Positions 50,836 through 64,000 of a stretch of DNA of 64,000 nt are shown one piece after another. A program made the translations under genes and the position numbers. The notes under the pieces were generated by a model. It was not told where the DNA came from. It was given only the letters and a program-made list of their open reading frames with translations, and ran no database searches. Numbering within the stretch: the stretch's first letter is position 1; every line of letters starts with the position of its first letter. The stretch covers positions 5,883,001 through 5,947,000 of the forward strand of contig NZ_CP029194.1 in the NCBI RefSeq assembly GCF_008642375.1, given 5' to 3'. The stretch comes from Streptomyces venezuelae (GTDB taxonomy: Bacteria > Actinomycetota > Actinomycetes > Streptomycetales > Streptomycetaceae).

Positions 50836-50908
50836 TCCCCTGTAGCTCAATTGGCAGAGCAGCCGGCTGTTAACCGGCAGGTTACTGGTTCGAGTCCAGT
50901 CGGGGGAG
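50836..50908 (+). tRNA. tRNA-Asn (GTT)
   Basis: A 73-nt cloverleaf: 7-bp acceptor (TCCCCTG / CGGGGGA, one G-U), D-loop AGCTCAATTGGCAGAGC, anticodon loop CTGTTAA with GTT, and T-loop GGTTCGAGTCC. CCA is not encoded. It is followed 5 nt later by a second, nearly identical copy. Confidence 0.97.
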
Positions 50909-50913
50909 CGCGA

Positions 50914-50986
50914 TCCCCTGTAGCTCAATTGGCAGAGCATTCGGCTGTTAACCGGAGGGTTACTGGTTCGAGTCCAGTCGGGGGAG
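50914..50986 (+). tRNA. tRNA-Asn (GTT), second copy
   Basis: A tandem duplicate of the preceding tRNA with changes only around the anticodon arm and variable loop (ATTCGG and CCGGAGG instead of AGCCGG and CCGGCAG). In this copy the first anticodon-stem pair is weakened. Confidence 0.96.
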
Positions 50987-50997
50987 CGGAACGGAAG

Positions 50998-51018
50998 AGG
51001 ACCCTTCGGGGTCCTTTT
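50998..51018 (+). terminator. Terminator after the tRNA-Asn pair
   Basis: AGGACCC-TTCG-GGGTCCT followed by a T run, 12 nt after the second tRNA: a classical intrinsic terminator. Confidence 0.85.
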
Positions 51019-51151
51019 TCGCGTCTCAGGGAACCATGCGGGCCGGTGCGAGGTCTTCATGGTCAGCAGAGCCGATCTTCCGGAGCAGGAGATCGTATGA
51101 GCGGCTATGCTGCGGCAGACGGCGCGCACACATGTACGCGCCTCACCGTAC

Positions 51152-51228
51152 GGGGCGGTAGCTCAGCCGGTTAGAGCAGCGGACTCATAATCCGTCGGCC
51201 GTGGGTTCGAGTCCCACCCGCCCCACCA
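51152..51228 (+). tRNA. tRNA with CAT anticodon (Met elongator or Ile2), CCA encoded
   Basis: Acceptor GGGGCGG pairs with CCGCCCC, A73 then CCA (51226-51228); anticodon loop CTCATAA; T-arm GTGGGTTCGAGTCCCAC. CAT can be elongator Met or lysidine-modified Ile2, which I cannot separate by eye; the initiator is excluded because the first acceptor base pairs. Relics of an integrase module follow directly, so its 3' end is a plausible attachment site. Confidence 0.93.
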
Positions 51229-51835: not shown

Positions 51836-52416
51836 TGGCAGCCCCTAAGCGTAAGAAGGCCCGCGCCAACGGCGAAGGCACCAGTTACCAGCGCAAGACC
51901 GGCCGACGGGAAGCCGCCGGCTACGTCCTCACCGTCTACGGCACCCGCAAATAGGTCCGCATCTATGGCGCCACGCGCAAGAATGCGGCCGACAAGCTCG
52001 CCAAGAGCAACCAGCGTCGCCGTCCACCGGCTCCGCGAGAAACACACCCATACCCGCTACGTCACCGGCGTCCGCCGTCACCGCATCCCCGGCCTCGGCG
52101 CCAAGCCGGTTCCTCGACGTGGGCCACGCCGACCGGCTCCACGTGCTGTACGAACGAACCAGGCGCACCGGACTCCGCAAGGGAACTCCGGCACATCTGC
52201 TTCCACGACCTCCGCCACTCAACCGCCTCCCTGCTCCTGGAACAAGGCGTTGATCTCATAGCCGTCAAGGAACTCCTCGGCCACGCCCGCATCGGCGTCA
52301 CCGCTGGCGTCTACGCCAACCCTCAGGAATTGCATCAGATGGGCGAGAAGCCGCAGGTGGCGCGGTCAGATCGGCATCCGACGGGGGCTCGGTCCTCCTA
52401 CAACTTGGTGGCTTGA
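51835..52416 (+). pseudogene. Degenerate tyrosine integrase of an AICE/phage type
   Basis: It opens with ATG and a typical start (KARANGEGTSYQRKTGRREA, YVLTVYGTRK) but hits TAG at 51952. A short related stretch (VRIYGATRKNAADKLAK) follows. Most of the middle is deleted or frame-shifted. The C-terminal catalytic part survives at about 52190-52416: FHDLRHSTASLLLEQGVDLIAVKELLGHARIGVT, then the Tyr region AGVYANPQELHQMG. It cannot encode an active recombinase. With the xis remnant and the adjacent tRNA, it marks an old integration event. Confidence 0.85.
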
Positions 52417-52450
52417 TCAGGGAGTTTGGTGATCAGATCCCATCTGATGC
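52332..52450. repeat. 12-bp inverted pair and 17-bp dyad upstream of the intact recombinase
   Basis: GCATCAGATGGG (52332-52343) and its exact complement CCCATCTGATGC (52439-52450) are 95 bp apart. The right copy overlaps a perfect dyad ATCAGAT-CCC-ATCTGAT (52432-52448), 33 bp before the recombinase GTG. The pair may be an element end or operators for the XRE protein encoded next door. Confidence 0.6.
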
Positions 52451-52480
52451 AGGATTTGCCCTCTGGAAGGGAGGGCTGGA

Positions 52481-53605
52481 GTGGGGCAACAGCGACGTGC
52501 CGACCTGGCCGGGGCGGCTCATCTGGAACTCGCCTCCGGGGTGGTCCAGCTGCGTCCGCAGGACGCGATGGTCGAGGCGATGCTGCGGGGCTGGCGGGCC
52601 CAGCAGGCCGCCCGCGGGCTGCGCGAGGACACGGTCACCGCCAGGGAACGGCTTGTGCGCCGGTTTCTGGAGCACACCAACGAGTACCCGTGGGCCTGGG
52701 CGCCGGGGCATGTGGACGAGTGGTCCCTCGGGCTGACCAGCGAGAAGCACTTGGCGCCATCCACGATCCGCAGCTACCAGAGCAGTCTGCGGCTGTTCAG
52801 CGAGTTCCTGATCGACGGCCGCTACGGCTGGGCGGTGGCCTGCGAGGACGCCTTCGGCACCCATCCGGTGGCGATCTGCCATGAGTGGAACACCATCGCC
52901 CACCTCAATGACTACGAGGGCAGGCCGGAGGCGAGGCCGTTCGCACGGGAGGAGATCCAGCGGTTCCTCGACTACGCCGACGACCAGGTCGACCGCGCGG
53001 TGCGCGCGAAGCGCAAGGGAGCCCTCGCTGCCAACCGGGACGCCACCCTCTTCAAGGTCATCTGCGGGTGGGGCCTGCGCCGCACCGAGGCGGCCAAGCT
53101 TGATCTGGTGGACTTCGGCCGCAACGCCTCGGCTCCGCAGTTCGGCCGGTACGGCACGCTCAACGTCCGCTACGGCAAGGCAAAGAAGGGCCAGCCGCCC
53201 CGGCGTCGGAGCGTGCTGTCAGTGATGGACTGGGCGGTGGAGGCCGTCGCCGACTACGTCGAGAACGTCCGGCCGCGGTTCGGCTGTGAGGACCACCCCG
53301 CGCTCTGGGTGACCGAGCGAGGCGGAAGGATCAAGCCCGCCGAGATCAATGCCCGGTTCGTCGCCTACCGCGACGCGCTGAAGCTCCCGAAGGAGCTGGT
53401 CGTCCACTCAGCCCGCCACGCCTACATCACCCACCTCACCGAGGACGGCGTCGACCGCCGCTTCATCCAGCAGCAGGTCGGTCACGAGAACGACAGCTCC
53501 ACCGCCATCTACACCCACGTCAGCGACGACTTCATGAAAACCATGCTCCACAAGGCGCTCGCGCCCGTGCTCGCCTCGACCACCTTCGCAGACAAGGACC
53601 GCTGA
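52481..53605 (+). CDS. Tyrosine recombinase/integrase
   Basis: A 374-residue site-specific recombinase that appears intact. N-terminal SAM-like core-binding domain (MLRGWRAQQAARGLREDTVTARE, STIRSYQSSLRLFSEFL) and C-terminal catalytic domain with Arg I in CGWGLRRTEAAKLDL, the Lys beta-hairpin region (YGKAKKGQPPRRR), HxxR as VHSARHAYITHL, a Gly-His motif GHEN, and nucleophile Tyr in STAIYTHVSDDFM. The GTG at 52481 has GGGAGGGC upstream. It overlaps the next gene by one base (TGATG) and leads a four-gene cassette. It is distinct from the decayed integrase immediately upstream. Confidence 0.93.
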   Translation: MGQQRRADLAGAAHLELASGVVQLRPQDAMVEAMLRGWRAQQAARGLREDTVTARERLVRRFLEHTNEYPWAWAPGHVDEWSLGLTSEKHLAPSTIRSYQSSLRLFSEFLIDGRYGWAVACEDAFGTHPVAICHEWNTIAHLNDYEGRPEARPFAREEIQRFLDYADDQVDRAVRAKRKGALAANRDATLFKVICGWGLRRTEAAKLDLVDFGRNASAPQFGRYGTLNVRYGKAKKGQPPRRRSVLSVMDWAVEAVADYVENVRPRFGCEDHPALWVTERGGRIKPAEINARFVAYRDALKLPKELVVHSARHAYITHLTEDGVDRRFIQQQVGHENDSSTAIYTHVSDDFMKTMLHKALAPVLASTTFADKDR

Positions 53606-53946
53606 TGGCCGCCAAGCTCGACTATCACTGGCACCTGCGCAAGGTCATGGCCGACCGGGGGCTGTTCTCCACCACCGACCTCATCCCGCTGCTGGACAAA
53701 CGCGGCATCACCCTGTCCTCCAGTCAGGTCTACCGGCTCGTCGTCGAACGCCCCGAACGGCTCAGCCTGAGAATCCTCATGGCTCTGCTCGACATCCTCG
53801 ACTGCACCATGGACGACCTCATCGAACCCGTGGCCGCGGTCGGCGCCGCAGCAACCAGCGGGACGAAGAAAGCAGTTGGCGCCGAGGCCGGTGTCGGTGA
53901 CCTCCGACCCAAGCGGGCCCGCATCCGTGGTGCCGAGCGACCGTGA
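53605..53946 (+). CDS. Small XRE/Cro-type HTH protein of the recombinase cassette
   Basis: 113 residues. An HTH of the XRE type (LRKVMADRGLFSTTDLIPLLDKRGITLSSSQVYRLV, then MALLDILDCTMDDLIEP) and a basic Ala/Lys tail. It starts within the recombinase stop (TGATG) and ends over the next gene's start (GTGA-type overlap), so it is translated with both. It may regulate the cassette or act as a directionality factor. Confidence 0.88.
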   Translation: MAAKLDYHWHLRKVMADRGLFSTTDLIPLLDKRGITLSSSQVYRLVVERPERLSLRILMALLDILDCTMDDLIEPVAAVGAAATSGTKKAVGAEAGVGDLRPKRARIRGAERP

Positions 53947-56349
53947 CCACACCGGGACACCCAGACCGGGCCATCTCCGACCCGATCGGAACGATCGTGG
54001 ACCTGGTCGCGGCCATCGAACCTCAGCTGGCAATCGAGCAGATCCGCACCATGGTCACCAACCTCGCGGGCGGCCGGGCGAAGGCCCGCCGCCTCGCCTC
54101 ACACCTGGCCGAGCGTCCCGGCGTGCTGACCGACGGCCGCTCCCCGGCGCCCAGGGCCATCGGCGACCTGCTCATCGCGCTCCGCGAGGCTGGCGCCTCG
54201 CACATCTCGCCCCCGTGTTGCGCCGACTGCGGCAGTCCGATGCGAACCCTCAAGCGCCGCGGGCAGGACTGGTACTGCTGGAGGTGCGGACGGCAGCTCG
54301 AACCCTGCGCTGCCTGCGGAAACACCCGCCGCATCGCGAAGCGGGACCGCGCTGGGCGACCGCGCTGCAAGATGTGTCCGGATGTCGACGGCCGGGATCC
54401 GATCACCGTCATCCACAGGGTGGTCACCGCTCTGGACCCGGCCGCCGATCGCGAAGTGATAGCCGATGCGGTCCGCCGGTCGGCAGCACGCCCCTCCGAC
54501 CAGCAGAAACTCGCCTGGGCCCTGGAAACCGACCCTGGCCTGCTCGCCGGGGACGGGCACCTCTCACCCCTTCGCGCCATTCTGCGACTGATCGACCTCC
54601 TGCACACCGCGGGAGTCGCCGGAGTCGTCCAACCCGCCTGCCCCGGCTGCCACAGAGTCGTCCGCATCGACAAACCACTCAACGGACAGCGGGTGTGCCG
54701 CACCTGCATCGCCCACAGCCGCCTTGAGGACTGCTCGCGCTGCGGAGCCCGCCACCCGCGACGACCAGGGCCGGCCACTGTGCCCGAACTGCCTGATCAC
54801 CGACCCCGCGAACCTCGAACCCTGCATCAACTGCGGCCGCCGACGCCTGGTGGATACCCGCACGCCAGACGGCCCGATCTGCCCGAGCTGCCCCGCTCTC
54901 CGCACCGCGACCTGCTCCGTATGCGGCGAGAACAGGCCCTGCGGCACTTCCCGCACCACCGGTCGCCCGTGGTGTCCTACCTGTCAACACCGCACCGCCT
55001 CCTGCTCGGCCTGCGGCCGCATCGCGGCGGTCGTCTCCGGCACCCTCGCCGAACCCCTCTGCATCGACTGCACCGCCCCCGAGGTCTGGCACACCTGCCC
55101 CACCTGCACCGATCCCGACCATCCGCACCCAGGCCAGTGCGCCCGCTGCCTGATCAACCAGCGCCTCAACGAGCTGCTGGGGCCTTCGACGGAGACGCTC
55201 CACCCCGGGCTCCAGGCCCTCCGGCACGACATCGCCACCGCCGAATACCCTCTCACCGCCAACCGCTGGCTGAACAAGCCGTCCATCGCCCCGGTGCTCG
55301 CCGATCTCGCCGCCGGCCGCCGGCCGCTCACCCACCAGGCCCTCGACGAACTGCCCGACAGCCAGCCCCTCGCACATCTGCGTCAAGTACTCGTCAGCGT
55401 CGGCGCCCTGCCCGAACGCGACGAGCACATGGTCCGCATCGAACGCTTCCTCGCTGGTCTCCTCGCATCCCAGCAAGACCCTGACCGGCGCAGCCTCCTC
55501 CACCGCTATACGACCTGGCACCTCGTCAGACGCCTACGTAGCAGGAATAACGGCCGACCCTCCACTCCGCAGCAGTTCAACTCCATTCGTCAGCACACCC
55601 ACGCGGCCGTCGCCTTCCTGGGCTGGCTCGCCACCCATAACCTCACCCTGGTCACCTGCGGACAGGGCGACCTCGACCGCTGGCTCACCGACGACTCCGC
55701 CACCTATCGCTGGACCGCCGGCCACTTCATCCGCTGGGCCCGCACCAACAAGCTGACCAGCGTCCACGCCCCCGCCCACCGCTGGAGCGGCCCGACCCAA
55801 CCCCTAGACGACCAGCACCGATGGGACAACGCACGCCGACTCCTGCACGACAAGACCCTCAAATCCGAAGACCGGCTGGCCGGCCTGCTTCTCCTCCTCT
55901 ATGCCCAAAGACCGGCAGCGATCAGCCGTCTGACCACCGCAGACGTCGAAGCCGACGATCAAGGAGTGCGCGTCCACCTCGGCCAGGCCCCCATCCGGCT
56001 ACCCGACCCAGTAGCCGCGCTCGCCCGCGCCGTCGCTGCCAGCCGCAAGGGCCACGCGACTATCGGGGCACTGGCGCCATCGCCCTGGCTCTTCCCCGGC
56101 GGCCAGCCCGGACGCCCGATCAGCACCACGCAGCTCACCCAGCGGCTCAACAACCTCGGGATCCGCCCCAACCAGGCCCGCAGCACCGCACTGTTCCAAC
56201 TCGCCACCGAAATCCCCGCCGCGATCCTCGCCCGCACCCTGGGCATCCACACTGACGTCGCCGTCGCCTGGCAGCGCCTCTCCGCAGGCGACTGGGCCAA
56301 CTACGCCGCCGAAGTCAGCCGCCGCTCTCGAAAGGCCCCCGCGCCGTGA
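53943..56349 (+). CDS. Multi-zinc-ribbon protein fused to a degenerate tyrosine recombinase domain (one apparent frameshift)
   Basis: Unusual protein of about 801 residues if one shift is repaired. Order: helical N-terminus with an HTH-like stretch (~residues 1-90); seven CxxC knuckles up to about 54743; then, in the next frame, nine more (CPNC, CINC, CPSC, CSVC, CPTC, CSAC, CIDC, CPTC, CARC), totalling sixteen, about eight zinc ribbons; then a recombinase-like C-half: core-binding region (PQQFNSIRQHTHAAVAFLGWL), Arg in YAQRPAAISRLT, and QARSTALFQLATEIPAAILARTLGIH. The catalytic HxxR reads NxxR, and Trp stands where Tyr is expected, so catalysis is unlikely. The shift lies near 54745-54755 in a GAGCCCGCC run and falls between two knuckles that should pair. 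The stop overlaps the next GTG. I infer an accessory DNA-binding partner of the active recombinase. Confidence 0.8.
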
Positions 56350-57185
56350 CCTTCCAGGACCATCTCCGATCCCTCGCCACGCAAGCAATCACCTCGATCT
56401 CGGCTGCCGAGGCGGCGGACATCTATGTCATCTCGTTCTTCATCGACAACGAGAGGGACGACCTGCGACAGCCCACCCTGACCATCGGATACAACACCGA
56501 AGCCCAGTTCCGAAGCACCATCGCGGACGCCTCCGACGAGGCGGAAGCCCGCTGGAACTACGCCTTCTGGCTACAGAACGAGCTCACGATCATCGGCGAC
56601 CTCACCCGGGACCCCGACGGAGCCGCAGCACGCCACCAATGGATCAGCGAACTCGGACTTTGGTACGACGAGCCCACGCACCCCGAGGACTGGATGACAA
56701 CCGTCGGGCCGACCGCCGAGCTGATCGAGGCCAACTTCAACCAGGCATGCGTCCAGCTCGCTCGCGACCTCCACAAGGAGGGCGTCATCAAGAGTGCCAT
56801 CGGTAAGCCAGTTCCCGTGATCCTCCACGAGCTGGAGTACTACGAGGGGATTGCTCGCCGGACCGAGGCGGCCAACCCGCCCGGGGCTCGCCGACGACTT
56901 CACGATCTGGGTCCACACCGGCTGAGGCATTCAGGCAGTTCCAATACCCGACTCCACCATTACACGTCCGACTCCGCCTGCAACGCCAAGCCGTCGACAC
57001 CCTGGGCGGCGCGCTCGGCCCGACCGACGACGACCCCCTTGACCCACCTGCTGCATCCGTCGTCCGCCGACGTTGCCGTCACGGTTGTCGTCAAACCCGA
57101 AGATGCCCTCTCCTCAATACGCCGAGGAAAGGGCATCTTCGTTCTACAGAGAAAGTTCAACATCGCAAAGCTAGATCATCTGTAA
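56346..57185 (+). CDS. Uncharacterised fourth cassette protein (possible DUF4303-like; C-terminus probably frameshifted)
   Basis: Coupled to the zinc-ribbon gene (gTGA). Residues 1-~180 look like a real soluble alpha/beta protein: AAEAADIYVISFFIDNERDD, LTIGYNTEAQFR, WNYAFWLQNE, QACVQLARDLHKEGVI and PVILHELEYYEGIA. It vaguely recalls DUF4303, which I would not insist on. After NPPG the open frame turns Arg/Ser/Thr-rich; removing one G near 56881-56886 instead gives LADDFTIWVHTG and a stop at 56923-56925, a far more natural end (about 192 residues). From 56926 to about 57098, a different frame resembles decayed coding DNA. Confidence 0.55.
   Translation: MTFQDHLRSLATQAITSISAAEAADIYVISFFIDNERDDLRQPTLTIGYNTEAQFRSTIADASDEAEARWNYAFWLQNELTIIGDLTRDPDGAAARHQWISELGLWYDEPTHPEDWMTTVGPTAELIEANFNQACVQLARDLHKEGVIKSAIGKPVPVILHELEYYEGIARRTEAANPPGARRRLHDLGPHRLRHSGSSNTRLHHYTSDSACNAKPSTPWAARSARPTTTPLTHLLHPSSADVAVTVVVKPEDALSSIRRGKGIFVLQRKFNIAKLDHL
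57099..57140. terminator. Hairpin closing the recombinase cassette
   Basis: GAAGATGCCCT and AGGGCATCTTC form an 11-bp stem with an inner CCTC/GAGG pair, followed by GTTCT. It is placed between the cassette and the convergent immunity-like gene, so it may end both transcripts. Confidence 0.6.
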
Positions 57186-57205
57186 TTAGATCCAGCCATG
57201 GTTAC

Positions 57206-57862
57206 TTAAAGCCTGTTGAGTTTATGCTTGCGCACCTGTCCGCTGACGATGGATTCCAAAGCCGCGGGGTCACCTGCCTTGGCAGCTAGACCCTCAAGCC
57301 ATGCCTCCGCTGAGACCCAGTCGAGAGGAAGCCTACCCTTTGGCCATCTGGTAGCAAGATCCTCGGCGAGTGCGATACCAGCTCTAACCAGGGCGCCTCT
57401 GCCGGCTGCCGCAGCAATGAGGATACTGTCCTCCATCTCCAGCACAGCCGGAGGGAGTCCCTTCTCTTGGCGATCCGAACAGGCCGAGTGATACTCCCCC
57501 ACGATCTCGTCTAGCGATGGCGGCTCGCTGAGGGAAAGTCGGCACTGCTCGTTCAGGGTTCTGACCGCATCGTGGAATTCATCTTCGTGACGAGAGAAGA
57601 GCACAGTTTCCGGCTGCCCCGAAGAGCGCTCCAGGCGGTGGCTCAAGGTTAGGGAGATCGCTGGGAACTCCCGGGTCAGCGCGTGCACGTGTGCGGTCGG
57701 GGTGTACCCGTCTCCAGAGGTCGAGCGGTCAAGGCAAATGCCCTGTAGGACCGGCCCAATCCGCCGCAGCAGATGCATCGGACGCCAGGGGGCAAACTCA
57801 GGGAACGCTGAGGCCCAGTCCGACGTCACGCGCCGTGCCGTAGCGGGACCCGACTTTGTCAC
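57206..57862 (-). CDS. Putative immunity protein for the RHS toxin
   Basis: A 218-residue soluble protein of no family I recognise. It begins at GTG 57862, overlapping the RHS stop by 4 nt (GTGA), with GAGG 7 nt upstream; an earlier ATG (57886) is less likely. Mostly helical and mildly acidic (FSRHEDEFHDAVRTLNEQCR, SLDEIVGEYHSACSD), with HYP-like C-terminal region AEAWLEGLAAKAGDPAAL. Visibly A/T-richer than flanking core genes, with AGA/CTA codons rare in Streptomyces. Its position immediately behind a polymorphic toxin tip is the main argument for immunity. Confidence 0.65.
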   Translation of the reverse strand: MTKSGPATARRVTSDWASAFPEFAPWRPMHLLRRIGPVLQGICLDRSTSGDGYTPTAHVHALTREFPAISLTLSHRLERSSGQPETVLFSRHEDEFHDAVRTLNEQCRLSLSEPPSLDEIVGEYHSACSDRQEKGLPPAVLEMEDSILIAAAAGRGALVRAGIALAEDLATRWPKGRLPLDWVSAEAWLEGLAAKAGDPAALESIVSGQVRKHKLNRL

Positions 57863-60800
57863 GGATTCACCTCGATTGTGAGCCACGCTCCCGGAACGTG
57901 GCGGGCGTTCAGATTGGCCTGCCGCTGGCCGATTCCCCGGCCTGGATGCAAGAGGAACTTATAGTCGTAAATGATTCCCTCTGCCGGATCATAGACGTCT
58001 GGCCGGGCACTTCCTGCGGTCCCATGCGGCACGACAGCCCCATTCAGATAGCTCTGCTCCGTAACCAGGCCACGCGAGCCGTAGATCCCCTGGTAGCGGG
58101 TCAGCAGTTTATCGGCGTACGCGTGCTTCTTGGTGCCAGCGACTGCACCACTTCCACCAACCTTAGCCTCAGCTCGCGTTGCAATGGCCTGTATGAGTTC
58201 CAGGTTGGATGGGTCGGTGGAACCGTTGCATGCACAAGGCTGACCATTGGGTGCTACTCCGCCACTGCAGTTGTGAACCAGGACCGGCGTGGCGTCTGCG
58301 AACACATAGTACGCGTGGATGTCTTCGATGGTGAGGTCATGCGTGCGCTGGCGCTTTGTGTAGTGGTCGAGTGCTGCGATCTGGACCAACGTGCCCGCGT
58401 TTGTGCGGAGCCATTGGCCAGTGCTGAGGCTCCCTGCCGGGACCCACTCCTCAAGGGTTGGGACCCAGAAGGGGTGCGTGTCGGTAGCTACGATGCTCGA
58501 TCGAGTCTTACCTGTTGCGAGGGTGATCTTGGTGAAGTTCTTGTCGTCCTCGGTCAAAATGGTATCGAGGACCTTTTTATCCGCCTCTTTGCCCGTCTCG
58601 ACTTCGGTTGTGGCAACAATGTCGCCGACTTCGATGTCCTCTATCTTCTTGCGTGTACCGTCCGCCATGAGGACTTCGGTCTTAGGCAAGAATGAGTGGC
58701 AATCGGGGAGTTTCTTGGCGCTTGCCTCTACTCCCTCGCTGAGAGTCGATGACGCTGCCTTACTGATTGCCTTTCCGGCGGCAGGAGCCTTTGTCGCCGC
58801 TTTGCCCGCAGCGCTAATTGCCATGCCGGCGCCGGGAAGAATTGGCATCATGAACTGAGTGAGCCAATAGGATGTGTGATAGGCGGATGAATTCGGCTCC
58901 GGCTTGCCGAATAGATTCTTCAGGAACGTGTGTCCGTTGCCAGGACCCGGGTTCTCCCGGTCGTGCCTGATCTTGGCGGCCTCGTCACTGTCACCCGTCA
59001 GGATGTTCCATCCCTCAGCCGTTTCCGAAGCCCAGTCGATTGTTCCATGAATTGCGCCCTTGACGGCGTCTGCGGCGCCTTCGAAGAAGTCGTCCAGGAA
59101 CAGTCCGGTGGGGTCGGCGTGCGAGATGGGACTGTTATTGGCGTACGCATACCCGTTCATTTGGAGCGGGTCTGCGATGTCGATGATGGGGTCGGCGGAG
59201 ATGAATCGACCGGTGTTCTGGTCGTATTCGCGGGCGCCGATGTGGGTGAGGAGGGTGCTCTTGTCGTCGATGCCGACGCCGAGGTAGCTGCGCTTGTTGG
59301 GCCAGTCGGTGACTTTGGTGCCACGGGTTTCGCCGTAGGGCTTGAAGGCTCGGCGGGTTACGGGCTGGTTGTCGGTGGCTGCGACGGTGGTGTGAGCGGT
59401 GCCGAGGTGGTCGGTGAGCAGGACGTGGACGCCGCTGGCTCCGTCGGTGCGTACGACGGTGGGTGTGCCGGCCTGGCTGTAGGCGCGGGAGACGCTCGTG
59501 ATGGCGGTGCCGTTTGTGGTGAGTTCGGTTTCGCCGAGGTAGAGGGTGCTGCCCGTGGGACTGTTCTCGAGGATGCGGTTGCCCTCGGCGTCGTAGACGT
59601 AGGTGGTCTTGTTAGTGCCTACGGTGTTCGACGCGAGCTTTTGCTCAGGGGTCCATGCGAGGGCCTGGTTGGCGGCCATTCCCGGGGGGTTGCGGGTCGC
59701 GGTCGTCCCTGTGGCGTTGTACGTGTAATAGCTGGTGGCGAGCTCCGTGGGGGAAGTCACGGAGGTGAGGGTGTGGGGTTGGGAGGCGCTGTACTTGTAG
59801 GTGTAGTTGACGTTTTCGGCCGCGACGCCCTCGGGATCGAACTCGGTCATGGTGGCGCGGTTGCCGAGCCAGTCGTAGGTGAACGCCTGGCGGTAGGCCG
59901 CCTGGCCGGTGACGCCGCTGGTGGCGACCGTGCCGGCGTAGGGAGCGGCCTGGGAAAGGTTGCCTGGCGTGGTGCTCGCCTCGGAGACGGCGTCGACGAC
60001 GGGGCCGCTGGAGGGCGCGCCGGTGCTGTCGTAGCCCCAGGTGGCTCCGGAGGCGGCCTTGCAGCCGACGCCGGCTCCGGTGGGCTTGATGTTGGAGGTC
60101 CAGGCGTTGACCAGTTCACCCATGACGTCGTAGGTGAAGCACTGGTTGTCCCAGGTCGTCGTGGTGTTCGTGATCGCGTCCTGGCGGGCGCTGGCGGTGA
60201 TCACGCCGGCTTTGTCGTAGGCGTATCCGGTGTCGGAGATGCGGTGCGGGCCGGCCTTCTCGCGGTCGGTCACGGTGCGCATCAGGCGGCCGGTGTGTTC
60301 GTCGACGAAGTTGGTCGTCCAGACGCGGTAGGGCTGTGCGCTGGAGACGGAACGGAGGACTTCGCCGTAGGGGGAGTAGGTGACGTCGGAGGTGTACCAG
60401 GCCTTGCCGGAGGTGGATTCGGGCAGGCCGTCCTCGTTGTAGCGGGTGATGACCTTCTCGGCCGGCAGGCCGCCCTTGGCGGGCAGGGTGACGGAGAGGG
60501 GCTTGCCGGTGAGGGTGTAGGTGTAGCCGTAGGTGTAGGTGCCGGACAGGCCGGTCGTCATGGGACTGACCGGGATGATCACCTGGCGGCCGGTGGGTCG
60601 GTACTCGGTGTCGTAGCCGGTGATCTTGGTGATGTAGTCGGCGTCGGCGCCGGCGGGCGTGGTGGTGTGGCGCTTGGACTCGGCCAGGAGGCCGATCCAG
60701 CCGGCCTTGTTCGGCTGCGCGACGTCGTTGGAGTCGTACGTGAACGCCTTGACAGGCGTGGAGCCGGCGGATCCCTCGCGTACGGCGGTGACACGGCCGA

Positions 60801-63800
60801 GCGTGTCGTAGGTGGTGTGGATGGACTGGCCGAGTGCGTCGGTGACGGTGGTGGGGCGGTCGGCGTTGTCGTACTGCGTCTGGGTGATGCCGGTGTCCGG
60901 GTCGCTGACCGAGGTCACGCGGCCACGAGTGTCGTAGAGGTAGCGCCAGGCGTTGCCGGCGGTGTCGGTGACGGTGTCGCGGTTGCCGCGCTTGTCGTAG
61001 CCGTACTTCGTCGAGCGGTACTTGCCGGAGGCGACGTGATGCCTGAGCTCGGTGACGCGGCCCAGGGCGTCGGTGACCGTGGTGGTCGCGGGGACGCTGG
61101 ATCCCGCGGGGTCGACGAGGGTGGAGGTGTCGCCGTAGGTGGTCGTGGTCGGGTCTTGGCGGGTCTGCCCGTGGTAGGGGATCTGGTGGACGGGGCGTTC
61201 CATGCCGTCGTAGACGGTCCTGACGCGGTACTTGACGAGGGTGGCGGACTTGACCTTGAACAGGTCGGTGGTCGGTTCGCCCTTGACGAGGTAGCCGTTG
61301 GCCTGTTCGGCGACGAGGCCGTGGTCGTTGTAGGAGGTGTCGGTGACGATACGGCCGGGGCCGTGTGCTTCAGACTGGGTCTGGACCTGGCGCATCAGGC
61401 CGTCGTAGAGCGTGACCTGGCGGGCGTAGCCGCCGTCGTCCTTGAGGGTCTTGACGGTGACGGCCGCGGGGTTGGTCAGGCCGTTGGAGGCGACGGCGGC
61501 TGTCTGGTAGGAGATCTCGACGTTCGGGGTCTGGGTTCCGGCGGATCGGGAGGGGGACCAGCCCTTGACGAGCCGGCCGAGGGCGTCGTACTGGCTGCGG
61601 GTGACGCGACCGTTGGGGTCGGTGACCGTCAGTGCCAGGGCGCGCCCAGGGTCGAAGGTCGTGGTGGACGCGTGGCCCTTGGCATTGGTCGTCTTGACCG
61701 AGGTGACGGGGCCGCCCGTGGAGGGTGTGTAGGCGGTCTTGGCCTGGCCGGTCGAGGGCGTGACGACGCTGGTGACGCGGCCGAGGTCGTCGTAGTCGGT
61801 GCTGCTGGTGGTGATGAAGTGGCCGGCGTCGTTGTCGGTGCCGGTTCCGTCGACCTCGTCCAGCTCGGTCACGAGGCCCTTGGTGGGCGTGGCGCCGTGG
61901 GCGAGGTGGTCGTAGCGGATCTTGACCGAGCCCTTGAGGTCATTGGAGGGGGTGGGGTCGGTGTAGTTGGCACAGCTAGTGGCGGTGGATCGGACCTTGT
62001 TGGGCAGGCCGATCAGCCAGGCGTTGGTGTTGTGGACGTAGGACGTCTTGGTACACGTCTGCTGGGAGAGGGTTTCCCCGGTGCCGTTGTGGGTGACGAC
62101 AGCGGTCTCGCCGACGGTGGGCAGGCCGTAGCCGTCCCGCTCGAGGGTGGTGGTGCGGACGCCTCGCCAGTTGGCCCCGTCGGCCTGAATGCTGTCGGTC
62201 TTCTTGATGCCCGTGCGGTAGGCGCGTAGAGCGGGCAGGTCCGTGCCGTCCTCGGCCTGGCGGGCGCGCGACGCGGTCTCGACGGACGCGTCGGGGAAGG
62301 TCCGGGTCCGGGTCTTGAACGCGGGCTTCGTGGCCGGGTCGTTGTCGAAGTAGGTCTTGGAGGTGTCGGAGTTGAGGAAGGTGAGGGTTTCGGCGGTCAT
62401 GCCGGCGTACTGGGGGGCGTCATCGGCGAGGAGAACGGTGCCGTCGACGGAGTCCTTGACCGCACCCCCTGTTCCCTGGAAGTAGAGCGTCGTGGACCGT
62501 GACTGGGAAGGCGGTGTGGAGAGCGGGGCCGTCTTCGCCGGTGTGGTCTTGTCACCCTTCGTGACCGTGACGCGGCGGTAGCCGCGCCAGTCGCTGTAGG
62601 TGCGCAGGGCGGGGCGGAGGAACTCGTCGTCGTTCTTGGAGTAGGCCGGACCCGAGTAGTCGTAGGTGGTCTTGACGGGCTTGCCGAAGATGTTGGCGAT
62701 CTTGTCGGTCTCGGTGACCGAGTGGACGACGTACCTGTTGAACCACGCCTTCTTGGGTGACTTGTCCTCGCCGTCAGGGGACCAGCGGACGGGGAAGCAG
62801 GGACCGTTGACTTCGCCCTTGTCGGTGGCGGGTTCGTACTGGCAGCCGCCGATGTACTCGACCTCGATGTCGGCGCCAGCTTCGGTGGCGACGGTTCCGA
62901 TGCGGGGCCGGGTGAAGTCGGGGCGCTTGTCGCCTGGTGCGCTGGCGACGAGGTTGGGAAGCTGCTTGTCGAGGAGGTACTTGCGCAGCGATGCGGGGGA
63001 CCGCTTGCCCACCGTGTAGGGGGCGAAGCTGACGCCGTCCTTCGACTGGAGGGTGCCGGCGGTGTCACCCGGGGCGAAACCCCTGCGGGTGATCGAGTTG
63101 AGCCACAGGCCCGGGGCGGTGTCGTACAACTCCTCGGGGAAGGAGTGGTTCAGGGTGTACGTGTCGACCTTGGCGAGCCCGGTCTGGCCGGGGCGGGCGG
63201 CATTGGTGGTGACGGTCCTGAGACGGAGCTGGGTCCAGAAGGACGGGAAGCCTGGGCAGAGCTTGGAGCCGGAAGCGCAGTTGAGGCTGCCGGGAGTGTC
63301 CCACCAGGGTCGGTAAGAGGTGGGATTGCCGGGCTTGAAGTTCGCCGCGTCACAGCCGGTCGTCTTCAGGCAGCGTTGGGCGGTGCCGAAGACGACGGTC
63401 GCGGACGGCTTGGTCAGATCGGCCGCGCGCATGCCGTACTCGATGCTGACCGGGTACGCGGCGCGTTCGTACGCTTCGGGCTTGACGCCGTCCTTGCGCT
63501 GGCCTCGGACGGCGTAGTAGTTCGTCTCCTGGTTCCAGTTGACGACCATGACGTTGCCGTTGACGTCCTCGACCTTGTCCAGGCCCCAGCGCCAGGCCTG
63601 CTGCTTGCCGGCACCGCAGCGGGAGGACGCGAAGGTGGTGGCGTAGCAGGGCTCGTCGGGGTGGTTGCCGAAGACGGGGACGGTGGAGACGGAGTTGGTC
63701 TCGGCGTGACCGCCGCCCACCTTGTTGAGGCCGAAGTGGTACCGGGTTCCGTCGGTGGTGGTCACCTTCCAGTGCTCACCGTTGTCGTCACCGTTCGTAT

Positions 63801-64000
63801 CGGCGGTGACGATGCGCTCGATGCGGGTGCCGTCGTCCTTCAGGGGACGGTAGACCTCGGTGTCGGTCTCGGGCTTGCCGTCCACCGCGGCGTCACGGAC
63901 GAGCTCGGTGGTGGTGCCGCCGAGAGACATGACCGCGTTGTAGGAAACCCAGCACAGGTCGCTTGTTTTATCGGCCTTGGCGGTGTTGTTGGGCGTCTTG
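57859..64000 (-). CDS. RHS/YD-repeat polymorphic toxin with Hint domain and PD-(D/E)XK nuclease-like tip (N-terminus beyond window)
   Basis: At least 2,046 residues are visible and the frame stays open to the window edge. From N to C: a beta-rich shell region with EHWKVTTTDGTRYHFGL; many YD repeats (YDALGRLVKG, YDTRGRVTSV, YNEDGLPEST); the RHS core (LLTDHLGTAHTTV, GAREYDQNTGRFISADP, YAYANNSPISHADPTGL, near 59100-59450); a linker with hydrophobic helices; a Hint domain from Cys at 58699-58701 (CHSFLPKTEVLMADGTRKKI, DTHPFWV) to HN-C at 58267-58275 (VLVHNC); and a 136-residue tip (57862-58269) with RPDVYD, IIYDYKF and a later GQRQ, fitting a PD-(D/E)XK nuclease. The tip would be released by Hint cleavage. 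Export route not visible. The tip is A/T-richer than the repeat body. Confidence 0.92.
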   Translation of the reverse strand, partial: KTPNNTAKADKTSDLCWVSYNAVMSLGGTTTELVRDAAVDGKPETDTEVYRPLKDDGTRIERIVTADTNGDDNGEHWKVTTTDGTRYHFGLNKVGGGHAETNSVSTVPVFGNHPDEPCYATTFASSRCGAGKQQAWRWGLDKVEDVNGNVMVVNWNQETNYYAVRGQRKDGVKPEAYERAAYPVSIEYGMRAADLTKPSATVVFGTAQRCLKTTGCDAANFKPGNPTSYRPWWDTPGSLNCASGSKLCPGFPSFWTQLRLRTVTTNAARPGQTGLAKVDTYTLNHSFPEELYDTAPGLWLNSITRRGFAPGDTAGTLQSKDGVSFAPYTVGKRSPASLRKYLLDKQLPNLVASAPGDKRPDFTRPRIGTVATEAGADIEVEYIGGCQYEPATDKGEVNGPCFPVRWSPDGEDKSPKKAWFNRYVVHSVTETDKIANIFGKPVKTTYDYSGPAYSKNDDEFLRPALRTYSDWRGYRRVTVTKGDKTTPAKTAPLSTPPSQSRSTTLYFQGTGGAVKDSVDGTVLLADDAPQYAGMTAETLTFLNSDTSKTYFDNDPATKPAFKTRTRTFPDASVETASRARQAEDGTDLPALRAYRTGIKKTDSIQADGANWRGVRTTTLERDGYGLPTVGETAVVTHNGTGETLSQQTCTKTSYVHNTNAWLIGLPNKVRSTATSCANYTDPTPSNDLKGSVKIRYDHLAHGATPTKGLVTELDEVDGTGTDNDAGHFITTSSTDYDDLGRVTSVVTPSTGQAKTAYTPSTGGPVTSVKTTNAKGHASTTTFDPGRALALTVTDPNGRVTRSQYDALGRLVKGWSPSRSAGTQTPNVEISYQTAAVASNGLTNPAAVTVKTLKDDGGYARQVTLYDGLMRQVQTQSEAHGPGRIVTDTSYNDHGLVAEQANGYLVKGEPTTDLFKVKSATLVKYRVRTVYDGMERPVHQIPYHGQTRQDPTTTTYGDTSTLVDPAGSSVPATTTVTDALGRVTELRHHVASGKYRSTKYGYDKRGNRDTVTDTAGNAWRYLYDTRGRVTSVSDPDTGITQTQYDNADRPTTVTDALGQSIHTTYDTLGRVTAVREGSAGSTPVKAFTYDSNDVAQPNKAGWIGLLAESKRHTTTPAGADADYITKITGYDTEYRPTGRQVIIPVSPMTTGLSGTYTYGYTYTLTGKPLSVTLPAKGGLPAEKVITRYNEDGLPESTSGKAWYTSDVTYSPYGEVLRSVSSAQPYRVWTTNFVDEHTGRLMRTVTDREKAGPHRISDTGYAYDKAGVITASARQDAITNTTTTWDNQCFTYDVMGELVNAWTSNIKPTGAGVGCKAASGATWGYDSTGAPSSGPVVDAVSEASTTPGNLSQAAPYAGTVATSGVTGQAAYRQAFTYDWLGNRATMTEFDPEGVAAENVNYTYKYSASQPHTLTSVTSPTELATSYYTYNATGTTATRNPPGMAANQALAWTPEQKLASNTVGTNKTTYVYDAEGNRILENSPTGSTLYLGETELTTNGTAITSVSRAYSQAGTPTVVRTDGASGVHVLLTDHLGTAHTTVAATDNQPVTRRAFKPYGETRGTKVTDWPNKRSYLGVGIDDKSTLLTHIGAREYDQNTGRFISADPIIDIADPLQMNGYAYANNSPISHADPTGLFLDDFFEGAADAVKGAIHGTIDWASETAEGWNILTGDSDEAAKIRHDRENPGPGNGHTFLKNLFGKPEPNSSAYHTSYWLTQFMMPILPGAGMAISAAGKAATKAPAAGKAISKAASSTLSEGVEASAKKLPDCHSFLPKTEVLMADGTRKKIEDIEVGDIVATTEVETGKEADKKVLDTILTEDDKNFTKITLATGKTRSSIVATDTHPFWVPTLEEWVPAGSLSTGQWLRTNAGTLVQIAALDHYTKRQRTHDLTIEDIHAYYVFADATPVLVHNCSGGVAPNGQPCACNGSTDPSNLELIQAIATRAEAKVGGSGAVAGTKKHAYADKLLTRYQGIYGSRGLVTEQSYLNGAVVPHGTAGSARPDVYDPAEGIIYDYKFLLHPGRGIGQRQANLNARHVPGAWLTIEVNP

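Follow-up and report, generated by a model that had tools for sequence, protein, structure and literature searches.

The window analysed here, a stretch of 64,000 nucleotides of Streptomyces venezuelae, spans positions 5883001-5947000 of a genome that consists of one contig with 8,558,202 bases. It contains an element of 4645 bp on the forward strand (52318..56962; all positions refer to the window), which lies between the target codons Tyr+1 and Tyr+2 of an integrase pseudogene. Three genes on the same strand form its core. Gene 1 (52481..53605) codes for a tyrosine recombinase of 374 aa with intact catalytic residues and gene 2 (53605..53946) for an XRE/HTH_26 protein of 113 aa. Gene 3 (53943..56349), frameshifted near 54.74 kb, joins 16 CxxC motifs (eight predicted zinc ribbons) to a dead tyrosine-recombinase domain. 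A cargo gene follows (56346..56925, forward strand, end approximate).

An earlier reading of this DNA, made by a model from the letters alone (the sequence-only reading), had described four genes overlapping head to tail by 1-4 nt. This was borne out: genes 1 and 2 share 1 nt (TGATG), and the GTG start codons of gene 3 at 53943 and of the next open reading frame (ORF) at 56346 each produce an overlap of 4 nt. Its assignment of an active-type recombinase and an XRE regulator also holds. Gene 1 matches PF00589 at 3.4e-18, gene 2 matches HTH_26 (PF13443) at 2e-14, and the catalytic R, K, HxxR, H and Y of gene 1 are invariant in 24 of 24 aligned sequences. Likewise, sixteen CxxC motifs were counted in the third gene, seven in the first reading frame and nine in the second, and its recombinase domain is dead as described. 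Trp occupies the position of the catalytic Tyr in all 25 aligned homologues, the HxxR motif has lost its His and kept its Arg, and the first catalytic Arg is lost as well, although some distant relatives retain an Arg there. Since the Tyr is missing in the 25 aligned homologues and likewise in eight further distant relatives, the loss of the gene 3 active site is old and fixed.

The second half of gene 3 gave a weak match to PF00589 (0.0071, under the Pfam cut-off). Plasmids carry intact homologues in one continuous ORF of about 800 aa; in an alignment of five, identity to the first sequence was 70-90%. Of the 295 genomes in the genus, 152 contain a relative of the second half at E up to 0.001; relatives of it are likewise present in 254 of 72,556 plasmid records. 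A scan of viral_contigs with a gene 3 profile (A3) returned the contig of L141, already known, as the sole locus (L numbers denote loci). A sequence search of the PDB with the gene 3 profile gave no match below E 0.025 and mostly zinc-finger proteins. The sequence-only reading had staked its case on a recombinase standing beside the zinc-ribbon protein. Approached from the left ends, genes 1 and 3 were both present at 42 of the 47 sites with at least 4.5 kb downstream, and gene 1 was found in 7 of 7 divergent relatives on plasmids (L187-L193).

Both ends of the element were recognised in the window copy, the right-end consensus with 0 mismatches, and homology to other copies begins and ends there. 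DNA similarity starts at about 52311-52318, covers the genes and reappears in an isolated block of about 39 bp near 56925-56963. The left end (52318..52416, forward strand) is in frame with the target and supplies a substitute tail of 32 codons (NPQELHQMGEKPQVA...LVA) followed by a stop. One arm of an inverted repeat, TGCATCAGATGGG, lies at 52331..52343 on the forward strand; the other, at 52439..52451 on the reverse strand, is 100% complementary to it. The right end, GGCATTCAGGCAGTTCCAATACCCGACTCCACCATTA, occupies 56926..56962 on the forward strand. The left part of the interrupted integrase pseudogene (51955..52317, forward strand) has a last in-frame stretch ending in GHARIGVTAGVYA and, according to its translation, carries the catalytic Tyr codon TAC at 52312-52314. 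It matches PF00589 at 1.7e-9, and the match reaches residue 120 of 121. The right part, HVRLRLQRQAVDTL..., covers 56963..57190 on the forward strand (end approximate). The sequence-only reading had drawn the unit at 52481-57185; genes 1-3 do lie within this interval, but the unit itself, 52318-56962, starts further left and ends inside it. A scan for promoters and terminators gave no signal above chance. The window copy is probably a fossil, because it sits in an integrase pseudogene, its gene 3 is frameshifted, its left-end pattern occurs once in its own genome and a lone additional gene 3 remnant of 41 residues is found elsewhere.

Further copies were located with a target-neutral left-end pattern (CTCNGGAATTGCATCNNNYGGGCG) in 87 stretches of genome_contigs and one of viral_contigs. 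Including the window, 89 sites were obtained; 8 with less than 45 bp before the Tyr codon were dropped and 81 were read. L070, L081 and L104 were discarded as chance matches without left-end continuation, L070 and L104 coming from deltaproteobacterial and Treponema metagenome-assembled genomes (MAGs), and L096 was removed for a run of N in its flank. The remaining 77 sites are a convenience sample with shared ancestry. At 56 of them the insertion is in register at the Tyr codon of the tyrosine-recombinase motif [GDK]H...TT..(x)Y-x. This count comprises 33 sites recognised by the motif, 21 by a profile (E below 0.001) and 2 by eye (L107, L132), and it includes L103 and L115, in which the Tyr is the second of a Tyr-Tyr pair. 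As the profile was built from the 33 motif sites, these 54 assignments are not independent, and Pfam served as an independent check: among 71 upstream frames of at least 20 aa, 48 matched Phage_integrase and 4 matched DDE_Tnp_ISL3. At five of the 77 sites the element entered the recombinase motif but missed the register by a few bases (L078, L094, L097, L130 and, less clearly, L111). Inspection by eye assigned six others to ISL3 transposase genes, with CRD...YA as the site (L058, L086, L087, L105, L108, L112). A copy on a plasmid of Rhodococcus sp. WAY2 (L008) is located in an apparent IS3-type transposase gene, also judged by eye.

Some copies reside within gene 1 of a relative. Alignment demonstrated this for L067 (81% to gene 1 of L004) and L133 (49%), DNA similarity of the joined flanks for L049, and inspection by eye for L055; the elements therefore nest. 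A Pseudonocardia subfamily (L071, L075, L080, L090, L118) has its own distinct left end and inserts at TAC outside recombinase active sites. No report of elements homing to active-site codons of recombinases appeared among the papers that searches of the open-licence PMC library listed, and the target at the recombinase Tyr codon is the new part of the finding. The sequence-only reading had missed this homing to the catalytic site of recombinase genes, and also that the fourth gene is cargo.

Sharp ends, near-identical multi-copy elements and the conserved three-gene unit all indicate that the element is mobile. G158 contains three copies, two of which lie in homologous integrases and the third at another place. 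Two pairs of these copies are 99.88% and 99.94% identical over 4,897 bp; the pair in the homologous integrases aligns over 6,114 bp including flanks at 97.4%. The three copies in G090 are 99.72-99.98% identical over 4,966-5,007 bp and occupy three different integrases. Element size ranged from 3.7 to 6.4 kb at the 32 of 101 loci with both ends recognised. The 101-locus set and the site sets used for tail and gene content hold same-place repeats (L047 = L056, L052 = L060). The contig of G022 (6005 bases) bears the same element as the S. blattellae locus L056. Gene 1 is absent after five left ends for which 2 kb or more of downstream DNA was available (L058, L061, L085, L095, L127); these are candidate non-autonomous or decayed elements.

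The four genes had been taken for one unit. The three core genes are indeed conserved, but gene 4 was rejected as a core gene, as this position holds cargo that differs among copies and is absent from some. Cargo-free copies (L008, L105, L108, L041-L043) end 11-43 bp past gene 3. Most of the other copies listed have space for about one gene, which often begins in a 4-nt overlap with gene 3. The cargo ORFs scanned resembled an SDR oxidoreductase, a GNAT acetyltransferase, a nucleotidyltransferase-like protein, DUF3626, Imm21 or treble-clef repeats, or had no match; annotation added HAD as one further type. The cargo gene of the window gave no match in Pfam, PHROG or NCBIfam. Its ORF as listed crosses the right end at 56962 and, judged by eye, leaves its native frame before that end.

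Empty sites, which the sequence-only reading had proposed to look for, were precise at two loci, L046 and L108. The joined flanks of L046 aligned without a gap to uninterrupted integrases from five genomes (L165-L168, L170), and 71 of 71 nt round the junction were identical; L169, L171 and L172 also span this junction, with gaps elsewhere. The joined flanks of L108 aligned to two uninterrupted Rhodococcus ISL3 genes over 360 of 360 positions, gapless, at 95%. These gapless alignments with uninterrupted homologues indicate that nothing was duplicated or lost at the two loci and that the element entered between Tyr+1 and Tyr+2 or at the ISL3 equivalent. The joined flanks of L038 had no match among plasmids. 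In joined flanks the reading frame mostly continues into an integrase-like C-terminus.

As a consequence of insertion, the target gains an element-encoded tail. A length of 32 codons is commonest (53 of 98 sites), and most tails have either this length or 15-16 codons. Seventy-six sites have a TAY codon at the junction together with 900 bp or more of flank; in 50 of these, the frame leading up to the junction is open for at least 250 aa. In 44 copies of the 32-codon type, the ratio of nonsynonymous to synonymous differences (pN/pS) of the tail was 0.73 in frame versus 0.93 and 1.05 in the other frames. Third positions are the least variable in the first 12 codons, which points to a constraint at the DNA level. 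Because of these signs and the weak coding selection, we make no claim of a functional tail.

Insertion sites differ in their distance from the conserved His before the Tyr, and this distance goes with the type of left end. Type A left ends (like L004) insert at His+10 (21 versus 6), type B left ends (like L110) at His+9 (38 versus 5). The contrast is significant (Fisher 2.6e-8; 92 distinct sites, of which 22 without a His at either spacing were excluded). The 11 exceptions have left ends near neither reference, with an A/B match difference of at most 9 of 99. Where the target offers two adjacent tyrosines (DHxxxxTTxxYY), the type B element L062 uses the first and the type A elements L103 and L115 use the second. 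A DNA matrix of 39 columns, trained per class, was run over 2.34 Mb of fetched DNA with both strands counted. At the leave-one-out median score it retrieved insertion sites and in-frame recombinase motifs only (16 + 5 for type A, 32 + 17 for type B). At the lower quartile, 21 + 9 were obtained for type A and 35 + 33 for type B, together with 2 matches that were neither. A DNA motif can thus suffice to mark targets within this recombinase-rich 2.34 Mb.

Comparison of gene trees suggests which protein does the aiming. Among 47 elements with both genes, four ISL3-targeting elements form one gene 3 clade (support 1.0) and two separate gene 1 pairs. L087 is a fifth element with a gene 3 from this group (71% to L108; others 62-75%), but its gene 1 is too partial to place. 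With 44 elements sorted into four target classes (His+10, His+9, off register, ISL3), the gene 3 tree requires three class changes, which is the minimum, and the gene 1 tree six. When His+9 was split further, the numbers were 6 for gene 3 versus 10 for gene 1 (minimum 4, shuffled mean 24.8). Moreover, gene 3 of the ISL3-targeting L105 and L108 matches gene 3 of L004 only from residues 166 and 154 on, respectively. Target class, as reconstructed here, follows gene 3 better than gene 1. We infer that gene 3 is likely the target selector because of its fixed catalytic loss, the fit between its clades and the target classes, and the divergence of the ISL3-type proteins before residues 166/154.

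Structure prediction agrees with the recombinase fold that had been proposed for the C-terminal half of gene 3, the models being of moderate quality. The full-length model (predicted local distance difference test, pLDDT, 79; predicted template-modelling score, pTM, 0.35) had recombinases as best matches, with weak E-values. The C-terminal 321 residues of a gene 3 homologue modelled alone reached a pLDDT of 74 and a pTM of 0.47. In a Foldseek search with this C-terminal model, the first 33 rows were tyrosine recombinases (best E 0.0011), and VIA returned XerA with a Z of 10.2 over 199 residues and a root-mean-square deviation of 14.4. According to the model, gene 3 and XerA are each composed of two domains, but these are arranged differently relative to one another. 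Taken alone, the catalytic-like domain superimposes on Cre at 3.4-4.0 angstrom over approximately 120 residues (VIA, Z 8.0-8.7). YopR, MrpR and SroF, with a tyrosine-recombinase-like fold, are among the structural matches listed. Going by their entry titles, these three are phage regulators, not transposon parts.

Together, these results make it very probable that the element is a transposon resembling Tsy, in which gene 1 cuts and joins DNA while gene 3 acts as a dead, TnsF-like selector that guides it to the recombinase Tyr codon. The active recombinase encoded by gene 1 would perform cutting and joining, with the XRE protein as an accessory factor or regulator. A gene 3 complex would read a DNA motif of about 35-40 bp that consists of conserved active-site codons (GGNCAC ... 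ACSAC ... TAC). Gene 1 would then insert a circular intermediate one codon past the Tyr codon of the target, without duplication or loss of target sequence. The target recombinase would retain its Tyr, but its natural C-terminus would be replaced by the tail that the element encodes. All evidence comes from sequence, which directly shows the ends, the precise insertion at two loci, the target position, the class-specific spacing, the link of target class to gene 3 and the fixed loss of its active site; target binding by gene 3, catalysis by gene 1, the circle and the fate of the target enzyme are what we infer. The sequence-only reading had suggested a heteromeric integration machine, and this idea is now well supported by the conserved trio, defined ends, near-identical copies, empty sites and the related Tsy.

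Several observations weigh against this interpretation. Ten of the 77 sites are without target assignment, and five of these, in two Pseudonocardia MAGs, keep the TAC with no recombinase active site. Of the 64 left ends followed by 2 kb or more of sequence, 6 have a short gene 1 or none. Two of the 70 type B matches at the lower quartile are not recombinase motifs, and the DNA searched with the matrix came from recombinase-rich loci. The comparison of target classes with trees rests on few swaps, and two of its labels, 'off register' and 'ISL3', are manual assignments. In Mantel tests with target distance, the two genes were not separated (0.19 for gene 3, 0.20 for gene 1; 51 elements). Type IB topoisomerases, which have a common fold with tyrosine recombinases, match the gene 3 domain about equally well (VIA, Z 8.6-8.7), and Foldseek E-values of the C-terminal model are merely 0.001-0.07, with low TM-scores. 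Finally, catalytic activity of the ZooTsy TnsF is essential according to the excerpts of its description, whereas gene 3 is dead in 25 of 25 aligned sequences; the division of labour must therefore differ.

Part of this would be expected if the elements were hitch-hikers that recognise a short motif of low specificity, recombinase genes being favoured simply as mobile, insertion-tolerant DNA. Apart from TAY, single positions of the target carry modest information (75 flanks), and the ten copies elsewhere, with a Pseudonocardia subfamily that retains TAC alone, fit this explanation. We nevertheless regard it as quite unlikely, given the exact codon register, the class-specific His-Tyr spacing, the use of the same kind of target one codon apart by types A and B, and whole-motif scores that pick out recombinase motifs in the DNA searched. 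To a similar degree we doubt that gene 1 alone sets target and reaction, with gene 3 being structural or regulatory and the fit of its tree a matter of chance linkage. Tyrosine recombinases normally recognise their own core site, and target distance correlates equally with the distances of both genes. However, relative to L004, elements with other targets keep gene 1 at about 75-82% while gene 3 drops to about 43-60%. ISL3 targeting occurs in two gene 1 lineages and one gene 3 lineage, and the excerpts of PMC10293859 report target binding by TnsF in both Tsy and Tn6022. A domesticated DNA-recognition system had been the other suggestion of the sequence-only reading. A host system of this kind, or one for defence, whose insertions are old scars, would account for the decayed window copy with its gene 3 in two frames. 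Near-identical multi-copy elements, precise empty sites, the 254 plasmid records with a match and the lack of any PADLOC match for six proteins scanned leave that suggestion unsupported, and we give it next to no chance.

If the selector does read active-site DNA, the Tsy-like transposon might be a hyperparasite. It would prey on the integration genes of phages, integrative and conjugative elements, plasmids and its own relatives, swap their C-terminus and thereby lock or rewire their mobility. Exchange of gene 3 would re-aim it at ISL3 transposases or a plasmid gene of DUF3307 type. We put this forward tentatively, as a scenario somewhat more doubtful than probable. If true, gene 1 makes the transposon a carrier of its own target class, and it follows mobile DNA through the actinobacteria. 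The gene 3 clades with differing targets, including the one-codon shift, would provide a natural set of re-aimed selectors. Target selection of the TnsF type by a dead recombinase would be directly testable and possibly programmable, with a bearing on how mobile elements police one another.

In the neighbourhood of the element, a tRNA-Met gene (51152-51228) adjoins the interrupted integrase pseudogene. Two tRNA-Asn genes and this tRNA-Met gene stand in a row (50836-51228), which may mark a place where another element once integrated. On the other side, YD-type repeats and, towards the end, a Hint-like region were recognised by eye in an ORF of 2,023 aa on the reverse strand (57859-63930). This ORF is followed by one of 226 aa (57206-57886). 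By eye, the pair has the look of a polymorphic toxin with a possible partner.

The seven divergent plasmid trios (L187-L193) have no truncated recombinase directly upstream of gene 1 in 7 of 7 cases; in L192, a recombinase ORF ends about 560 bp before the gene 1 frame. L187 (3290-3303) and L188 represent a related trio with a gene 1 about 56% identical, 16 CxxC motifs and an NPGELH-type left end common to both, inserted in another plasmid gene annotated as DUF3307 or hypothetical. Among the matches listed, seven element-free records agree with L187 as far as the last base ahead of the left end and no further. L189-L193 are short-form trios on Streptomyces, Arthrobacter, Rhodococcus and Mycobacterium plasmids, with a gene 3 of about 490-610 aa from stop to stop and six CxxC motifs. 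They are a possible resident ancestor of the transposons.

Among known systems, the SE, GInt, RIT and Tn554-like elements, in the excerpts of PMC10214605, PMC5385486 and PMC3414803, also combine several recombinase-fold proteins, site-specific insertion and cargo after the operon. One of their proteins (Tfp, GinC) has no catalytic residues, as is the case for gene 3. In contrast, they have at least two active recombinases and other target sites, whereas only gene 1 keeps RHRY here. SE, GInt and Tn554 also differ by a TnpC/Srap/GinD-type protein in their operons, and the excerpts describe no zinc-ribbon selector. Identity with the actinobacterial Famint36/41 (Table 2 of PMC3414803, as excerpted) was rejected, as two of their plasmids, FB24 plasmid 1 and pREL1 (NC_008537, NC_007491), had no gene 3 match, while the positive controls NC_010494 and NZ_CP050438 both matched.

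The excerpts of PMC10293859 (Faure et al. 2023) describe Tsy as encoding a tyrosine recombinase (YRec), a small helix-turn-helix (HTH) protein and a TnsF-like protein, which combines zinc fingers at its N-terminus with an active recombinase domain; a GIY-YIG nuclease is sometimes present as well. YRec, HTH and TnsF are all required for transposition and a circle is formed. Ends of 135 bp and 20 bp are enough if 12 bp of flank are included, and insertion is directed at the Walker B region of comM. Furthermore, TnsF of both Tsy and the Tn7-like Tn6022 binds target DNA, and in Tn6022 an inactivated TnsF selects comM. Tn6022 thus resembles our element in using zinc fingers and an inactivated tyrosine-recombinase domain as target selector. 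It differs in its TnsABC/TniQ partners and target-site duplication, in place of which we find a tyrosine recombinase and no duplication at two loci. Compared with the same excerpts, Tsy differs from our element in its target, which is comM and not the recombinase Tyr codon or ISL3/IS3 transposase genes. The element described here is actinobacterial, its gene 3 has 16 CxxC motifs and about 800 aa, and no GIY-YIG domain was found in the 14 cargo proteins scanned. The likeness to Tsy includes the gene order YRec, HTH, TnsF-like and the zinc-finger N-terminus joined to a recombinase fold (moderate model). It extends to a long end beside YRec (135 bp in Tsy, about 160 bp here), one short end with cargo downstream, and a target that is the conserved catalytic motif of a protein gene, split by the element. 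With an active TnsF and comM as features of strict membership that it lacks, the element is best called Tsy-like, a likening by architecture and description that suggests it works as Tsy does.

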